Source: Dokdonia sinensis (GTDB lineage Bacteria > Bacteroidota > Bacteroidia > Flavobacteriales > Flavobacteriaceae). From it: a stretch of DNA of 64,000 nt. Shown here in pieces: positions 17,586 through 23,715 of the stretch. Below the pieces are notes generated by a model, which saw only the letters and a program-made list of their open reading frames with translations, made no database searches and was not told the origin of the DNA. The position numbers and the translations under genes are program-made. The stretch covers positions 1-64,000 of the forward strand of contig NZ_REFV01000016.1 of the NCBI RefSeq assembly GCF_003688895.1, in the 5' to 3' direction. The stretch's first letter is position 1, and each line of letters opens with the position of its first letter.

Positions 17586-19559
17586 TTAAACAGTTTTTGG
17601 TATTGTAAATTCAACCTTCGTCCCACTGTAATCTATTGATAAAATAGTGAGATCGCCATTTACATCTTTTATACGCTTTTTCATATTATTTAAGCCGTTC
17701 CCCAAGGCCGGTTGCCCAGTATCAAAGCCTTGACCATTATCTATGATGTTAATTCTAAATTGAGAAGGTTCTTGATGGATGTTTACACTTATTTCTTTAT
17801 TTGATGCCGCTTTCGCGAAAGCGTATTTCAAACCATTATTTACACTTTCTTGAATCACCCGATATAAATTGATCCCCTCTACCGAGGTAAATGCGTACTG
17901 CTTATCAATATCCCCATCTATATTAAATTTAAAAGCTACATCTGACGCAGCTTTGCGGGCACTATCTATAAAATTTGAAATACGGCTTTGTAGGTCTTCA
18001 AAGGTGATTTCCTCCTTGTTCATCGCCCAGATGGTATCCCGTAATTCGTTTATGGTAGTTTTTGTGAAATGGGCAATATCGCTAAGCTTATCAGTCACGT
18101 TAGAATCTGCATCCTTAAGCCCATATTTTAAGGTATCTAATGACGAAATGATAAATGTAAGCTGGCTTCCTATATTATCGTGCAGATCACGAGAAATACG
18201 CAGGCGTTGCTCTTGCAGGCGGTTTTGAGTCTCGATTTTCGCCAGCGCCGTTTGGAGTTCGCTTTCCTTTTTAAGCTGGCGATTCTTGAGACGTTGCTGG
18301 TTGTAAACCAGATAGCCTAAAAGTCCGAGTAACACGGCAACAGCGATAGCCCCATAGATAAGGTTGTTTTTCCTACGGATGCTCAGTTCATTTTCGGCGA
18401 GCTGGGCGCGTTGCTCTAGGATTTGATTTTCTTTTTTTTCGGTTTGGTATTTTGTTTCCATCTCAGTTACTTCAGAGAGGGTCTGTTTCTGGCTAAAAGC
18501 CTGACTTGCAATTATGTAATCCGTAAGATACTTTTCAGCTTTCTGCCAGTCCTCCTGACCATAGGCAGTACGTGTGAGCGCTTCGTAGGTTAGAGCGATC
18601 TGGTCTAATTTACCTTCCCTTTTAAATACGGAAAGTGCTTCCGTTAATTCCTTTTCTCCCTTCTTATATTCCTCTAGTCCTAAATGAGCAATGCCCAGAG
18701 ACAGTTGAGAACTTGCTATATCTAAAGCAGCTTGATTAGACTGTCTAATGGCTAAGCCTTTAAGAATTAAATCCTTCGCTTTTTTAAACTCTTGACGATC
18801 ATTATAAATTACAGCTAGATTATTTATCGAAGCGGCTACTGATGGCAAATATCCTATACGCTCTGCCATTGCGAGACCTTTTTCTAAATTTTCAATAGCC
18901 TTTGTCTCTATTTTTTGTTTTACATAAACATTCCCAGTATTTATATAGGTGTTTGCAAGAAATTGCGAATCCCCAAATTGTTGAAAGAAAATCTCATTAT
19001 CCTTATAATACTCAAGAGCACTCTCATAATCTTGCATTTCCATTTTTATAGCCCCTACATTCCCACGCAATCGTGCTGCTAATTGCTCTTGTCCTCTGTC
19101 CTCGTATATCTTTATAGCATCTATGTAGTATTTTGTAGCACTATCAAATAGTGTTTGTTTGAAGTAAATATTTGCAACCTTGCCATATACAGAGGCTACA
19201 CCCATAGTATCTTTTAATGCCCTCCTTAATTTCAGAGCCCTCTCATAATAGGACATCGACTCCGTATTGTTACCAGCCACATATTCAGCTATTCCGAGAT
19301 CGTTGTATGCTTGCGCTATTGCAACAGAATCTTCTATTTTCTTAGCAAACTCTAGAGATTGTAAGCCATAAACACGGGAACTATCTGCAGAAATCATCGA
19401 GTAATACCAAGTCGCATCCCCTAGTAGCTTTACCTTTCGTTCGTCCAAAGGATTTTTAGATAACTCGATTTTAATACTATCTACTATCTCTTGAGGAGTT
19501 TGAGCCTTTAGAAGGATGCTCGCACAAAAAGAAAGAGCAACGAGTAAAAATGTTTTCAT
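17586..19559 (-). CDS. TPR-containing sensor histidine kinase (HisKA_3 type)
   Basis: A 657-residue protein. It has signal peptide MKTFLLVALSFCASILLKAQ, then about seven TPR repeats (for example ASVYGKVANIYFKQTLFDSATKYY) filling the exported half. A coiled linker and a membrane helix near residue 410 (YGAIAVAVLLGLLGYLVYN) follow. The cytosolic kinase has the H-box RISRDLHDNIGSQL, the N-box VIQESVNNGLKYA and the G-box DNGQGFD. HisKA_3 kinases usually pair with NarL/LuxR-type response regulators, but no response regulator gene is adjacent. I chose the ATG at 19559 because it gives a clean signal peptide. A dispersed palindrome encodes AFAKA within the N-box region. Confidence 0.92.
   Translation of the reverse strand: MKTFLLVALSFCASILLKAQTPQEIVDSIKIELSKNPLDERKVKLLGDATWYYSMISADSSRVYGLQSLEFAKKIEDSVAIAQAYNDLGIAEYVAGNNTESMSYYERALKLRRALKDTMGVASVYGKVANIYFKQTLFDSATKYYIDAIKIYEDRGQEQLAARLRGNVGAIKMEMQDYESALEYYKDNEIFFQQFGDSQFLANTYINTGNVYVKQKIETKAIENLEKGLAMAERIGYLPSVAASINNLAVIYNDRQEFKKAKDLILKGLAIRQSNQAALDIASSQLSLGIAHLGLEEYKKGEKELTEALSVFKREGKLDQIALTYEALTRTAYGQEDWQKAEKYLTDYIIASQAFSQKQTLSEVTEMETKYQTEKKENQILEQRAQLAENELSIRRKNNLIYGAIAVAVLLGLLGYLVYNQQRLKNRQLKKESELQTALAKIETQNRLQEQRLRISRDLHDNIGSQLTFIISSLDTLKYGLKDADSNVTDKLSDIAHFTKTTINELRDTIWAMNKEEITFEDLQSRISNFIDSARKAASDVAFKFNIDGDIDKQYAFTSVEGINLYRVIQESVNNGLKYAFAKAASNKEISVNIHQEPSQFRINIIDNGQGFDTGQPALGNGLNNMKKRIKDVNGDLTILSIDYSGTKVEFTIPKTV
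17809..17822. repeat. Dispersed palindrome GCTTTCGCGAAAGC
   Basis: Perfect copy inside the ATPase domain of the histidine kinase, read as AFAKA on the minus strand. Confidence 0.9.
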
Positions 19560-19584
19560 ACGTAAATGGTTAGTTGCAAGAAAA

Positions 19585-19827
19585 TTACAAAATAATTTCA
19601 TGTTGCGGGATAAGGGCTTCGTCCAGATTATATTTGAGTAAATGATATTTACTTAAATGATCGTTACGCTGGGCTATTTGGCGTTTGTGCTGTTGGATTT
19701 TGGCAATGCTTCTTTTGACTAATTCTTCGTGTTGCACTTTGATTTTAGTTTTCTTTCGGCTTAAGTTGTAGGATATACACAAGGCTATTGTGGAAAAGGA
19801 CAAAAGTATAAGTTGAGAAATAGACAT
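19585..19827 (-). CDS. Small single-pass membrane protein, unknown
   Basis: An 80-residue frame starting MSISQLILLSFSTIALCISYN, one membrane helix, followed by a basic helical tail (SRKKTKIKVQHEELVKRSIAKIQQHKRQIAQRN). It sits 25 nt upstream of the histidine kinase start and is likely cotranscribed with it. I do not recognise a family. A membrane helix followed by a coiled-coil-like tail would suit a small modulator of the kinase, but this is only inferred from position. Confidence 0.55.
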   Translation of the reverse strand: MSISQLILLSFSTIALCISYNLSRKKTKIKVQHEELVKRSIAKIQQHKRQIAQRNDHLSKYHLLKYNLDEALIPQHEIIL

Positions 19828-19856
19828 TGTGATTCTGAGTTGGTGGTGTAAAGTTC

Positions 19857-19870
19857 GCTTTCGCGAAAGC
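19857..19870. repeat. Dispersed palindrome GCTTTCGCGAAAGC
   Basis: Perfect copy 30 nt upstream of the small membrane protein start. Confidence 0.9.
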
Positions 19871-19904
19871 GTAATCCTATACGTCACCTGCCCTATTTTA
19901 TTAA

Positions 19905-20028
19905 GCAAAAAAGGCCGCGCACAGCACGACCTTTTCTTATTAGAAGTTCATAAATCCCCCAATTTATAAACTACCATACTTCCAAACACTTAATATTAAA
20001 AAAACTTATTACGGTTTCATTTTTCTTA
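19905..20028 (-). ncRNA. Candidate short transcript (sRNA or leader peptide RNA)
   Basis: On the minus strand a -7 box TATATTTG (20034-20041) predicts a start near 20027. About 95 nt later comes a GC-rich hairpin ending in a run of T (19911-19932). The resulting RNA of about 120 nt contains no long frame. It has only a nine-codon frame, MVVYKLGDL (19977-19948), plus shorter ones. The promoter carries the shared 20-bp operator. Alternatively the hairpin could be an attenuator and transcription may continue into the small membrane protein and kinase genes. Confidence 0.4.
19911..19936 (-). terminator. GC-rich terminator hairpin
   Basis: On the minus strand AAGGTCGTGC/GCGCGGCCTT pairs with two G-U pairs and is followed by six T residues. 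It lies downstream of the DUF6498 gene and of the operator-bearing promoter. Confidence 0.75.
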
Positions 20029-20033
20029 CAAGA

Positions 20034-20082
20034 CAAATATACAAGAGCACCACTCACATATCCGTGGGGCAAATGCCCTATT
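20034..20082 (-). promoter_or_regulatory. Operator-promoter A (shared palindrome + -7 box)
   Basis: The 20-bp near-palindrome at 20063-20082 (minus: AATAGGGCATTTGCCCCACG) is separated by exactly 21 nt from the -7 box TATATTTG (20034-20041). Two other promoters in this block have the same layout. It drives the short transcript described above and perhaps the kinase operon. Confidence 0.6.
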
Positions 20083-20809
20083 CTGAAATTTTCTGTAGTA
20101 CCGTCTCAATTTCCTCAACAGATTGTTCGGGACGCTTTACGTACAAGGCTATATTCCGCATCATTGTGCTACCTTCTTTAAAAGCAGCTATGATTAAATC
20201 AATAATTGTCCTAAATAACACCAGTAAAACACCCGCAGCAAAGCCAGAAGAAAACACAATCATAAAAAAACCTGATAGAATTACTACAAACTGCTGCACA
20301 AAAATTCTTACGTATGGTGTAATCATTAAATCTGCTACCGTGTAATCCTTATACTTTCCTTTAGACAAGAAATTGTTCAAAAAATAGCCTAAATTACCTG
20401 CGATTATGGATCCCAGCACCCAACCCATACCATTAAATTGAAGCACCTTCTGGTAATTACCTAAAATGTCGAGACTATCTGTTATAACACCATCCCCAGC
20501 TACTTCAAACAATGAAAATCCCAGAATACTCTGAATGGCTACAAAAGCTCCATAATGAATTATAAAAAATGGGATCGCAGCGATCCCTCCTTTATCCTTT
20601 CTTGTAGATCTTAGGTGGGTAGGGCTATACGACACAACGATGTACATCTTTACAACATTGAGAATTCCTATGACAATCGTCTCAAGAAAGTAACCAAATA
20701 CCACGGTAATGGGCGCAATCACTCCTATCGCCATCATTGTTAAAAGGAAGGCCGCATTGATATAAATAAACAGGTTCCCTTTATTAGGGTAAAACAAATC
20801 TCTAAGCAT
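20078..20809 (-). CDS. DUF6498-like integral membrane protein
   Basis: A 243-residue polytopic protein with about six hydrophobic helices. It begins MLRDLFYPNKGNLFIYINAAF and contains VFGYFLETIVIGILNVVKM, the conserved first-helices pattern I associate with DUF6498. Function unknown. I chose the ATG at 20809 because a GAGGAG stretch precedes it and the family N-terminus starts there. An in-frame ATG at 20821 and GTG at 20863 are alternatives. It follows the secreted-protein gene by a short gap and is probably in the same operator-controlled transcript. Its stop overlaps operator A. Confidence 0.75.
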   Translation of the reverse strand: MLRDLFYPNKGNLFIYINAAFLLTMMAIGVIAPITVVFGYFLETIVIGILNVVKMYIVVSYSPTHLRSTRKDKGGIAAIPFFIIHYGAFVAIQSILGFSLFEVAGDGVITDSLDILGNYQKVLQFNGMGWVLGSIIAGNLGYFLNNFLSKGKYKDYTVADLMITPYVRIFVQQFVVILSGFFMIVFSSGFAAGVLLVLFRTIIDLIIAAFKEGSTMMRNIALYVKRPEQSVEEIETVLQKISE

Positions 20810-20891
20810 ATCTCCTCGCATTAAAAAGCCGAAGTAACCTAACAAAAAGTTTCTCCGGCTCACGTAAAAACCTCAACATTGTGAGACCTTT

Positions 20892-21965
20892 TTACTTTTT
20901 AAAACTAAAAAACTGATTAATCTGATCTGAAAGAAAGGCATTGCTCGATTCATAAAGCGCATCTGCAAGTCTCTCACCATCTACCTCTACAAATTTTGCA
21001 TTCTCGCTTATAGAACTTCTCCACTCTGTAACTCTGTATAAATTTCCTATATCGTAGGTTGTGCTTGCTTTACCCTTATCATAGGTGCTCACCTTAGTAT
21101 TTTCTACCACGCTTCCTATATACAAGGGTTTCTTTAGTATACCCTCTGAAGTTACTCTTTTGAGGCCAGAGCCTTGATAAAACCCGATTCTGGTAGGAAT
21201 CCTATAGGTGCTTTCTTGCCCTTTCATACGCAAACCCTTTTTTACTGGAGCGGCAACGGTATGCGTTCCTAGCATAAGATTTGTCTTTATCTGCGCATTT
21301 GCAGCCCCTATGGATTTAAACCATGAGGATCCAGCTTCGCTATAATTGAGTGCAAGATCTACTTCAATAACAAGAACGTCGTCTAAATCTTTAGAAAGTT
21401 GGTTAGGGCCGGACAATGCTTTTCCCACAGCTTTGAAACCGCTTAAAAATCCGTCTTTCTTTGACGCCTTACCCTCTGCCTCTCTCTTGCTTACATAAAA
21501 GGTTGCTCCAGAAGGTATGCATTCTATATATCCCGGGTTTGCACTTTCTCTCAATGAGGGTCCCTCCATCACTACGGCATTTTTAAAATAATCTGTTCCT
21601 GAAGCGACGTTTCCCGCAAGCACTTCCATTCCGTTATTTTCTAGTTGGCTAACAAAATCTGCATAAAGAGCATCCACCTTAGCCTGAATTGCCTCCGTAT
21701 TTACGCCTTTTAGTCCAAGGGCCGCCATTGCCTTTGCTTCTCCACGACCTTTTCCTCTAAAGCTACTTTTTGCTTTATAATCTACATCCTCTCTATAAAC
21801 TTCTACTAGGACATTAAAAGAGGCAATGTATGCCTTGGAGGGCATTTTTTTTGAAGGTTTTTGTTGCGTGTGAGAAAGCTTCGTGTTGAGTTCCCCGAGA
21901 GTTTGTGCTTGAGCAGTTATTGTTCCTAAGACCAATAGAATTCCGATTAATAATTTTGTTTTCAT
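20892..21965 (-). CDS. Secreted protein of unknown family (operator B target)
   Basis: A 357-residue protein with signal peptide MKTKLLIGILLVLGTITAQAQ. The mature part includes YIASFNVLVEVYREDVDYKAK near the start and a central IECIPSGATFYVSKREAEGKA. It has no Cys pairs, no HExxH and no recognisable catalytic motif. I do not recognise the family. The ATG at 21965 was chosen over one 30 nt upstream because it begins the signal peptide and lies about 21 nt after the predicted transcription start. Operator-promoter B is directly upstream, and the DUF6498 gene follows in the same direction. Confidence 0.8.
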   Translation of the reverse strand: MKTKLLIGILLVLGTITAQAQTLGELNTKLSHTQQKPSKKMPSKAYIASFNVLVEVYREDVDYKAKSSFRGKGRGEAKAMAALGLKGVNTEAIQAKVDALYADFVSQLENNGMEVLAGNVASGTDYFKNAVVMEGPSLRESANPGYIECIPSGATFYVSKREAEGKASKKDGFLSGFKAVGKALSGPNQLSKDLDDVLVIEVDLALNYSEAGSSWFKSIGAANAQIKTNLMLGTHTVAAPVKKGLRMKGQESTYRIPTRIGFYQGSGLKRVTSEGILKKPLYIGSVVENTKVSTYDKGKASTTYDIGNLYRVTEWRSSISENAKFVEVDGERLADALYESSNAFLSDQINQFFSFKK

Positions 21966-21992
21966 AATGATTAGTTTAAGATTTTTACACTT

Positions 21993-22041
21993 CAAATGTC
22001 ATATTTTGAACGCCCTAGTTCAATAGGGCAATTGCCGTATT
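21993..22041 (-). promoter_or_regulatory. Operator-promoter B (shared palindrome + -7 box)
   Basis: The palindrome AATAGGGCAATTGCCGTATT (22022-22041, one mismatched pair) lies exactly 21 nt upstream of GACATTTG (21993-22000), a -7 box with one mismatch. No -33 TTTG is present; the palindrome occupies that position, as expected for an activator site. Confidence 0.65.
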
Positions 22042-22081
22042 CTGTCTTATATGCATTTAACTTATTGAAAATTCGGTGTTC

Positions 22082-22095
22082 GCTTTCGCGAAAGC
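22082..22095. repeat. Dispersed palindrome GCTTTCGCGAAAGC
   Basis: Perfect copy between operator B and the terminator of the DUF6252 gene. Confidence 0.9.
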
Positions 22096-22104
22096 GAAGT
22101 AAAA

Positions 22105-22129
22105 AAAAGCAGTCCCGAAGACTGCTTTT
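22105..22129 (-). terminator. Terminator after DUF6252 lipoprotein gene
   Basis: Stem AAAAGCAGTC/GACTGCTTTT with a 5-nt loop. On the minus strand it is followed by further T residues. Confidence 0.85.
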
Positions 22130-22150
22130 AAACATTATTTTATTGTTAGT

Positions 22151-22669
22151 CTAAAGGTCAAGATTAAACGACCCATTCGTCACGCTTACTGTAGACTCAT
22201 CGTCTGGATTTCTCGCAGTAAACTCAAAAGTTCCTTCGATTTTAGAATCTGTTATAGTAACGATGTTTACTTCTCCGGAAGCGTTCTCATCAAAAGGCGC
22301 AGACCATATTTGAGTATCCGTAGGATTGCTGGCATTAGCCTCAATATAGGAAGCCACGATTGAGATATTTGCTCCGCCGCCGATGATGTAGGTACCCTCT
22401 GCGTCGACTCCCTGTAGTGTTAGTGTGATGTTACGACTGCTGGAAAATTCGTTAGAGGTGATAAGTGTAGTGGTCATTCCGTTTGCGGTCACTTGGCTCA
22501 CAGAGGTTCCCATTGCATCAGACGTATAGCTAGCACCGTCTACAGAAGCGGTTACCGTTCCGTTAGAAGCGCTTCCCGCATCGCCGCCATCATCGTCAGA
22601 TTTACAGGATTGAAGTGAAAGTACTGTGGTCGCTATAAAAGCAACCATTAAAAATTTAAGAGTTTTCAT
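22151..22669 (-). CDS. DUF6252-type lipoprotein (operator C target)
   Basis: A 172-residue lipoprotein with signal MKTLKFLMVAFIATTVLSLQSC (lipobox Cys22), an acidic linker KSDDDGGDAG and a beta-rich domain starting VTASVDGASYTSD and ending VSVTNGSFNLDL. That is the DUF6252 pattern common in Flavobacteriaceae. Function unknown; location probably the outer membrane or periplasm. The gene has its own terminator and is preceded by operator-promoter C, with about 22 nt of leader. Confidence 0.85.
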   Translation of the reverse strand: MKTLKFLMVAFIATTVLSLQSCKSDDDGGDAGSASNGTVTASVDGASYTSDAMGTSVSQVTANGMTTTLITSNEFSSSRNITLTLQGVDAEGTYIIGGGANISIVASYIEANASNPTDTQIWSAPFDENASGEVNIVTITDSKIEGTFEFTARNPDDESTVSVTNGSFNLDL

Positions 22670-22697
22670 AATGAGGTTTTTAGTAATTAGTATGGCA

Positions 22698-22746
22698 CAA
22701 AATTGCCGTAATTACCACCTCAAATCAATACGGCAGTTGCCGTATT
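22698..22746 (-). promoter_or_regulatory. Operator-promoter C (shared palindrome + -7 box)
   Basis: The perfect palindrome AATACGGCAGTTGCCGTATT (22727-22746) lies exactly 21 nt upstream of CAATTTTG (22698-22705), a -7 box with one mismatch. It abuts the stop codon of the GSCFA gene. A weaker half-site (minus TACGGCA) sits just before the -7 box. Confidence 0.65.
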
Positions 22747-23715
22747 CTACTTAAAATCAATGTATGGATATTGTTTCTGAAGATTTTCCATACGCTCATT
22801 GAGTTTCATCAAAAAAGATTTGTGTTGCTCACTTTCGGTATTAAATGGTCTGTGGGAAAGCCCTGCTTGGATGATTCCCACTTCTTTTAGGGTGTCATAG
22901 GTTTTCGTACTTCGGCTACGCTCAGTATAAACTCCAGCATATACCTCCAAAAACTTTTCCCAAATATAGTCCACCGCCTGCTCTGAAGGGTGTAACATAT
23001 CGCTTGCATAAAAACGATAGTCCCGCAACTCATCCATCATCAGCTCATAAGCTGGAAAATAGCTCGCACTCCCAGATTCACAAACTTCGTGTATCGCCGA
23101 AAGTAAGTGCGCTTTACTTCTATTGTTCTCCACAAAACCATCCTTAAGATGTCTTACAGGAGAAACGGTAAATACAATTTGAGCCTTAGGATTCAGCTTT
23201 TTTATGAACGCTATCTGTCGCTCGAGACTTGCCGTGATTTCAGAAATAGGAAGTAAGCCTTTAGCAAACTGGTTTTGTGGTATTTTATGACAGTTGGCAA
23301 CCAGAACACCCGTAGGCGTGTGTTGATATGCCCAAGCTGTTCCCAGCGTAATGAAGATGTGCGAAGCCTCTTTAACAGTATTTCTTAGTTGCGACTTTGC
23401 ATTATTCAATCTATCCAACAGCACTCCACGAGAGGTTGCATTTAATCTACTGTGCGCCACAAAGGATTTCCAAACACCGTCCAACTCAAAGATAGTCTCC
23501 TCCATATCTCTATCTTCACAAGCATCCAGCAATACCCGTTCTATCGCCAGAGGGTGAAATAAAATTCCAAACGGATTTGTCGTTGCCTGAAATTTATAGT
23601 ATTCTAATTTCTGCCCAATATTCTCAGCAAAGCAGGAGCCTAAGAGTAAGAGCTTATCCTTGTAACCGAATTGGTTTTTTGAAGAGGTTAGCGGGATTTT
23701 TGTTTGTAGGTTCAT
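22747..23715 (-). CDS. GSCFA family protein
   Basis: A 322-residue protein with the defining motif LLLGSCFAENIG (about residues 24-35), a central FITLGTAWAY and VFTVSPVRHLKDG, and SDMLHPSEQAVDYIWEKF near the end. This is the SGNH-like hydrolase layout of GSCFA proteins, whose substrate is unknown. Near the C-terminus the segment YTERSRST is encoded by a copy of a dispersed Bacteroidota repeat (22907-22929) that seems to have been inserted in frame. The stop codon touches operator C of the next gene. Confidence 0.88.
   Translation of the reverse strand: MNLQTKIPLTSSKNQFGYKDKLLLLGSCFAENIGQKLEYYKFQATTNPFGILFHPLAIERVLLDACEDRDMEETIFELDGVWKSFVAHSRLNATSRGVLLDRLNNAKSQLRNTVKEASHIFITLGTAWAYQHTPTGVLVANCHKIPQNQFAKGLLPISEITASLERQIAFIKKLNPKAQIVFTVSPVRHLKDGFVENNRSKAHLLSAIHEVCESGSASYFPAYELMMDELRDYRFYASDMLHPSEQAVDYIWEKFLEVYAGVYTERSRSTKTYDTLKEVGIIQAGLSHRPFNTESEQHKSFLMKLNERMENLQKQYPYIDFK
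22907..22929. repeat. Dispersed TERSRS-type repeat inside GSCFA gene
   Basis: The core ACTGAGCGTAGCCGAAGT on the minus strand is an imperfect palindrome of a kind found widely in Bacteroidota genomes. It is read here in frame as YTERSRST. A related core lies at 14621-14636. Confidence 0.7.

Follow-up and report, generated by a model that had tools for sequence, protein, structure and literature searches.

A palindrome at fixed spacing from -7 boxes as the candidate operator of a NarL/LuxR-type regulator and TPR sensor kinase in Dokdonia sinensis and its relatives

Three described two-component systems come closest to the one considered here. In NarX/NarQ–NarL of Escherichia coli, a REC–GerE regulator uses inverted 7-2-7 elements; according to excerpts of PMC7419079, its operator abuts the -35 element or lies shortly upstream of it, the NarL II site of ogt being centred at -44.5, and natural ogt requires NarL sites at both -77.5 and -44.5. 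In FimS–FimR of Porphyromonas gingivalis the sensor is a periplasmic TPR kinase, and the regulator exerts positive control over an envelope structure (PMC11053733, excerpted text). VraSR and LiaSR are envelope-stress systems of Firmicutes. Here we analyse a 64,000-nucleotide stretch of Dokdonia sinensis (assembly GCF_003688895.1, contig NZ_REFV01000016.1, positions 1 to 64,000; hereafter the window), in which a 20-bp palindrome recurs on the minus strand ahead of -7 boxes, near the gene for a TPR–HisKA_3 sensor kinase. We propose that it serves as operator for a NarL/LuxR-type response regulator encoded on another contig, C23, with the window kinase as cognate sensor; in flavobacteria and some relatives the system appears to control a small group of genes, most of them for the cell surface.

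The likeness to NarX/NarQ–NarL lies in the regulator class and the operator layout, with a predicted operator centre of about -43.5 against -44.5 at NarL II. The differences are the operator itself, TACGGCA-NN-TGCCGTA, the TPR sensor, the Bacteroidota -7 promoter and the requirement of natural ogt for a second NarL site; the C23 regulator scores 133.5 bits against the NCBIfam NarL cut-off of 250 (NF007935) and is not a NarL orthologue by that measure. The kinase, on which the comparison with FimS–FimR was made, falls below the FimS cut-off (NF053520; 90.4 versus 600 bits), and no fimbrial genes are among the targets named here. Among relatives of the regulator with a solved structure VraR scores best (5hev, 3.4e-38), and the outputs here look envelope-directed, but the kinase scores 72.6 bits against the LiaS cut-off of 450 (NF052531). 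VraSR and LiaSR differ from the present system in sensor architecture and operator. The parts are of familiar kinds, and the circuit is one for which we found no earlier description: none of the titles and abstract openings listed described the operator, the TPR kinase/LuxR pair or DUF6252, in a search outside which lay regulon databases, preprints and other literature.

Window coordinates, letters and spacings are read on the minus strand; the -7 box pattern is TAnnTTTG, and spacing runs from the palindrome edge to the box start. The initial annotation had described palindromes and -7 boxes at three minus-strand promoters, always 21 nt apart. Their coordinates and letters were right and the gap is exact in each; the total was one short, as a fourth palindrome (operator 4, Table 1) had been missed. 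A pattern scan allowing up to three mismatches finds four palindromes in the window against 0.07 expected, and none of 100 shuffles reached four. A search of the window for one exact -7 variant gave two matches against 1.4 expected, which is the chance level, and a plasmid search with a 61-base query around operator 1 returned no match. A site similar to operator 3 lies at the 3' end of the DUF6498 gene in locus L051. A repeat, TTCGCTTTCGCGAAAGCG, occurs at 19854–19871 and 22079–22096, one copy lying across the 21-nt spacer of operator 4.

The matches of the genome-wide motif scan that had been called for at the outset include the window sites and two sites on C23, one of them in front of a NarL/LuxR regulator gene. 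With up to two mismatches, the degenerate 16-bp core matched the genome at least 57 times against 29 in the control, so that the loose pattern is weak on its own. With at most one mismatch it matched nine places: the four window sites, a pair on C23 and three within long open reading frames (ORFs; loci L004, L007 and L009), which leaves the two on C23 as the only intergenic places outside the window. Among the 15 loci fetched, a -7 box of at least 4/6 (C or T first, either side) stood at offset 21 at the four window sites, at both C23 sites and at L007, where the site lies inside a coding gene and was taken as chance. On C23 the palindrome TAGGGCAATTGCCCTA, with TATTTTTA 21 nt on, directly precedes the regulator gene (G000:C23:182776-183423) and follows the 3' end of a gene that looks, by eye, like an outer-membrane receptor. 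The product carries Response_reg (PF00072, 2.7e-24) and GerE (PF00196, 1.6e-18) domains and is therefore of the NarL/LuxR type. Its transcript may be leaderless, since the predicted start falls within one or two bases of the ATG. The second C23 site lies 5' of a papain-like peptidase gene (Peptidase_C1–DUF4384), followed by a WD40–caspase gene (L016, 3737–8523, minus strand), and a peptidase/WD40-like pair with an operator in G029 (L185) resembles this pair, as judged by eye.

In a set of 148 genomes that includes D. sinensis, regulator orthologues (E<=1e-40) are present in 31 and kinase orthologues (E<=1e-60) in 28, with both in 27. The two genes are less than 1 kb apart in 25 of the 28 kinase genomes, as expected of a HisKA_3 kinase and its partner, which supports an early suggestion that the nearby TPR–HisKA_3 kinase is a candidate controller. 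The three exceptions are D. sinensis itself and G007, each with the two genes on separate contigs (the G007 assembly has 1020), and G074, which has no regulator match. Many of 20 relative regions share the order alaS, GSCFA, DUF6252 lipoprotein, PQQ_2 beta-propeller, kinase and small membrane protein (in either order), and regulator. Beside the C23 regulator lie some of the genes, DUF4230 among them, that adjoin it in relatives, and the window kinase stays with alaS and GSCFA, from which we infer that an ancestral kinase–regulator locus was split in D. sinensis. Two adjacent kinase matches near the same regulator, in G022, G029, G032 and G046 (L055, L051, L056 and, for G032, C49), suggest tandem duplication.

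The operator was modelled with a weight matrix trained on 18 sites that lie upstream of the regulator in relatives, D. sinensis being left out. Their consensus, AATACGGCAATTGCCGTATT, reads as two inverted 7-bp elements 2 bp apart, the 7-2-7 layout described in excerpts of PMC9314961 and PMC7419079. The window slice, C23 and the 20 relative regions hold 52 distinct sites that score at least 16 within 450 nt of a gene start, matrix training sites included and operator 3 left out by its score. A -7 box matching at least 5/6 lies at offset 21 in 35 of the 52, at 20 in four and at 22 in three; elsewhere between 5 and 44 no offset has more than two. The spacing is therefore conserved in relatives, and the preference was not built in, because the matrix leaves out the -7 region. 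In 79 loci found by means of a regulator alignment, a search for ATAVG-N8-CBTAT followed at 20–22 nt by a -7 box of at least 5/6 (C or T first) gave 163 strand-specific hits (151 distinct palindromes), of which 141 were at 21 nt, against a single hit in reversed sequences; one or more sites at 21 nt are present in 66 of the loci. These loci and the 148 genomes are not fully independent, some loci being the same records (L097 matches the G017 locus).

In F. psychrophilum the sigma-A -7 box has been mapped at -12 to -5 (PMC9723704, in part), the placement from which the starts in Table 1 are predicted. With a gap of 21 nt, the palindrome would span about -53 to -34 and be centred at about -43.5, a class II-type position, fixed and abutting or overlapping the -33/-35 element, relative to predicted starts. 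The initial annotation had stated that the promoters have no -33 TTTG. This was only partly right, as the operator often runs into part of a -33 element: at operators 1 and 2, the two strong window sites, the final ATT of the palindrome and the next base form ATTG at about -36 to -33, and in the 79 loci a G follows the palindrome at 81 of 137 sites, giving ATTG at 70. The first -7 base is C at 67 and T at 54 of the 137 sites, in a search that favoured C or T.

As had been anticipated, the site co-occurs with a NarL/LuxR regulator gene. The exact pattern ATAVGNCANNTGNCBTAT is found in 24 of the 31 regulator-positive genomes (68 sites, 1 control match) and in 10 of the 117 without an orthologue (11 sites, 14 control matches; Fisher p 7e-14, or 5e-11 within the family); with fewer sites than control matches, the regulator-negative genomes are at background. 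A variant, ATACGNNATTCNNCGTAT, is present in 6 of the 31 (11 sites) and 4 of the 117 (4 sites), with no control match. Counting D. sinensis, 16 of 30 loci have a palindrome (up to two mismatches) within 400 nt upstream of the regulator.

The centre of the operator differs with the start of the regulator's recognition helix, the residue numbers of which we take to be those of NarL. Regulators with S-x-S-T have a CA..TG centre at 70 of 74 sites and those with S-x-G-T at 13 of 70 (locus-level Mann–Whitney p 1.5e-9), the outer TACG/CGTA of the compared sites being largely set by the search pattern. By locus, 29 are S/canonical, 26 G/variant, 8 G/canonical and 1 S/variant. On a tree with the helix residues masked, helix type changes 6 times and site type 8 times; averaged over 200 pairings, the site shifts the same way in 1.7 and the opposite way in 0.0. 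The covariation is suggestive. In L113 (4832–14319) the regulator has two canonical sites ahead of it and two with an ATTTC centre behind it, and the first of the latter two precedes a 90-aa protein; this is perhaps a second copy of the system with another specificity.

The 141 offset-21 hits in the 79 loci, in which four palindromes count on both strands, were treated as promoter calls. The next gene encodes the DUF6252 lipoprotein, the commonest recognized target in relatives, in 37, the regulator in 19, a PQQ propeller in 8, the small membrane protein and the kinase in 6 each, DUF6498 and the 357-aa type in 2 each, and other products in 61, which by eye include at least 12 proteins of about 90 aa with hydrophobic N-termini. 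Three ORFs assigned to calls more than 1 kb away are doubtful. A crude test finds a hydrophobic N-terminus in 119 of the 141 next ORFs compared with 658 of 1324 ORFs of the same loci. Sites elsewhere in relatives, viewed in 20 stretches, often lie 5' of putative exported proteins, again by eye; several others, for example in G014 and, inside an ORF, in G044 (C2:86755), do not resemble promoters of this type.

We therefore consider it probable, at roughly 85%, that the palindrome is the operator of the C23 regulator, that its cognate sensor is the window kinase, and that the regulator activates its own genes and a small envelope regulon. An envelope signal would reach the periplasmic TPR domain of the kinase, which would phosphorylate the regulator; a regulator dimer would bind the 7-2-7 inverted repeat, abutting or overlapping the -33 element, and there, through contact with RNA polymerase, switch on promoters that often have a weak -7 box, with C in place of T as first base. 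The outputs would be the regulator and kinase themselves, as feedback, the small membrane protein, the lipoprotein, the beta-propeller, the peptidase and further proteins, most of them exported, with a short RNA ending in a terminator added in some genomes.

The same regulator, bound to the same operator, might instead repress, the palindrome covering the -33 region and blocking polymerase. Its overlap with that element, ATTG included, would suit repression, and autoregulation can be negative. Repressors, however, tolerate variable operator positions, and both the rigid 21-nt spacing and the many -7 boxes that begin with C fit contact-dependent activation. In E. coli, moreover, NarL can activate yeaR from a single 7-2-7 element just upstream of -35, and an ogt derivative that has one improved site, at -44.5, depends on NarL/NarP, though its activity is uncoupled from nitrate (PMC7419079, excerpted text). 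By this analogy and from position alone we prefer activation and regard repression as unlikely. Several sites occur in many loci, so that being a target is no proof of being the regulator, and the two-component genes might merely be among the targets of another, unlinked transcription factor; yet the sites track the presence of the regulator across genomes, often lie before its gene and have a centre that follows its recognition-helix type, which makes this account very improbable. Chance palindromes or a mobile repeat might be read into the excess of loose core matches in D. sinensis, but were rejected on the fixed spacing, the conservation across genera, the operator–regulator co-occurrence and the reversed control, and we give them a negligible probability.

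Several points weigh against the activator circuit that we favour. All the evidence is sequence, and the sign of regulation is read from position. The exact pattern was drawn up after reading 20 regulator-positive regions, so the co-occurrence test was not blind; a looser 18-mer with two mismatches, which the exact pattern superseded, had matched 113 of the 148 genomes and separated the groups poorly. Seven of the 31 regulator-positive genomes have no exact canonical site; three (G055, G061 and G087) carry the variant, and G026, G032, G134 and G139 match neither exact pattern. No site was found in 11 of the 79 loci, five of them with Algoriphagus/Cyclobacteriaceae-type regulators with S-P-K-T helices. 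The G074 kinase has no regulator match at E<=1e-40, the window operators at 19878 and 20063 are weak, and the masked tree offers only two independent contrasts on supported branches, too few for significance.

Table 1. Features of the operator locus (position-specific scoring matrix score abbreviated PSSM) and of the short RNAs of relatives.
Feature	Coordinates	Strand	Description
Operator 1	22727-22746	minus	AATACGGCAACTGCCGTATT, symmetric except central NN; 5' of DUF6252 lipoprotein gene; PSSM 29.5
-7 box of operator 1	22698-22705	minus	CAATTTTG; spacing 21 nt; predicted start ~22693
Operator 2	22022-22041	minus	AATACGGCAATTGCCCTATT, one mismatched pair; PSSM 29.6
-7 box of operator 2	21993-22000	minus	GACATTTG; spacing 21 nt; predicted start ~21988
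Operator 3	20063-20082	minus	AATAGGGCATTTGCCCCACG, 6/10 pairs match; weaker, PSSM 15.3; overlaps DUF6498 stop codon
-7 box of operator 3	20034-20041	minus	TATATTTG; spacing 21 nt; predicted start ~20029
Operator 4	19878-19897	minus	AATAGGGCAGGTGACGTATA; PSSM 20.8; 50 nt before small ORF heading kinase operon
-7 box of operator 4	19849-19856	minus	GAACTTTA, 4/6 with C or T allowed first; spacing 21 nt; predicted start ~19844
DUF6252 lipoprotein gene	22151-22669	minus	Pfam PF19765, 5e-11
357-aa protein gene	20892-21965	minus	Hydrophobic N-terminus
DUF6498 gene	20078-20863	minus	PF20108, 4.4e-39
Predicted short RNA, ~125 nt	19905-20029	minus	Operator-3 transcript; TTGGGGGA at hairpin loop, then terminator hairpin with T-run
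Small protein, 80 aa	19585-19827	minus	Hydrophobic N-terminus; heads kinase operon; protein cluster of 9 including window copy
TPR-HisKA_3-HATPase_c sensor kinase	17586-19601	minus	Pfam
Short RNAs of relatives	L049 12646-12755; L048 6937-7042; L074 2470-2582		Downstream of operator

Among the window genes, the 357-aa protein has no Pfam match at 0.1 and one homologue (G017) in the 20 relative regions, where its place is taken instead by a PQQ_2 beta-propeller cluster that includes 15 of their proteins; by gene order, the DUF6498 gene is likely to be co-transcribed with it. Homologues of the small protein adjoin the kinase or the regulator in 8 of the 20 regions. The kinase has hydrophobic stretches near residues 13–33 and 413–433 with the TPRs between them, and its TPR domain is therefore probably periplasmic.

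A short RNA upstream of the kinase operon had also been claimed. It is plausible: the operator-3 transcript would end at a strong terminator hairpin (19905–19930), and a similar RNA stands in the same place before the kinase genes in three genomes of the same genus (G007, G011 and G017). In the four short RNAs, compared by hairpin alignment as a whole-RNA MAFFT alignment misaligned the window copy, the loop TTGGGGGA is invariant, the stem letters differ and each has a terminator; fold z-scores are -4.1 (window), -3.0, -4.9 and -4.5. The window terminator rests on folding, and was not listed by a terminator scan accompanying a sigma-70 consensus scan, whose consensus does not cover this promoter type. 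Rfam gave one sub-threshold match on 19700–22900, to Leu_leader (19907–19977; 25.1 versus 50 bits, E 0.032), taken as chance. At some other loci the site is followed by a different terminator-like hairpin. The window RNA may be a free small RNA or an attenuated leader. A bolder combination, possible although we rather doubt it, is that the regulator fires this terminated RNA, in which the UUGGGGGA loop is exposed, immediately ahead of its own sensor genes as a conserved regulatory-RNA arm that pairs envelope-protein with small-RNA outputs, and that changes where the recognition helix begins have re-tuned its DNA specificity across Bacteroidota.

Few Flavobacteriaceae regulators, as far as we are aware, have an operator that is known. 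Here a sensor, a regulator, an operator, a promoter geometry and a target list are given together, conserved over many genera. The system would serve as a worked example of how transcription at Bacteroidota -7/-33 promoters depends on an activator, and would offer a natural series of regulator–operator variants for mapping the DNA specificity of the NarL family.

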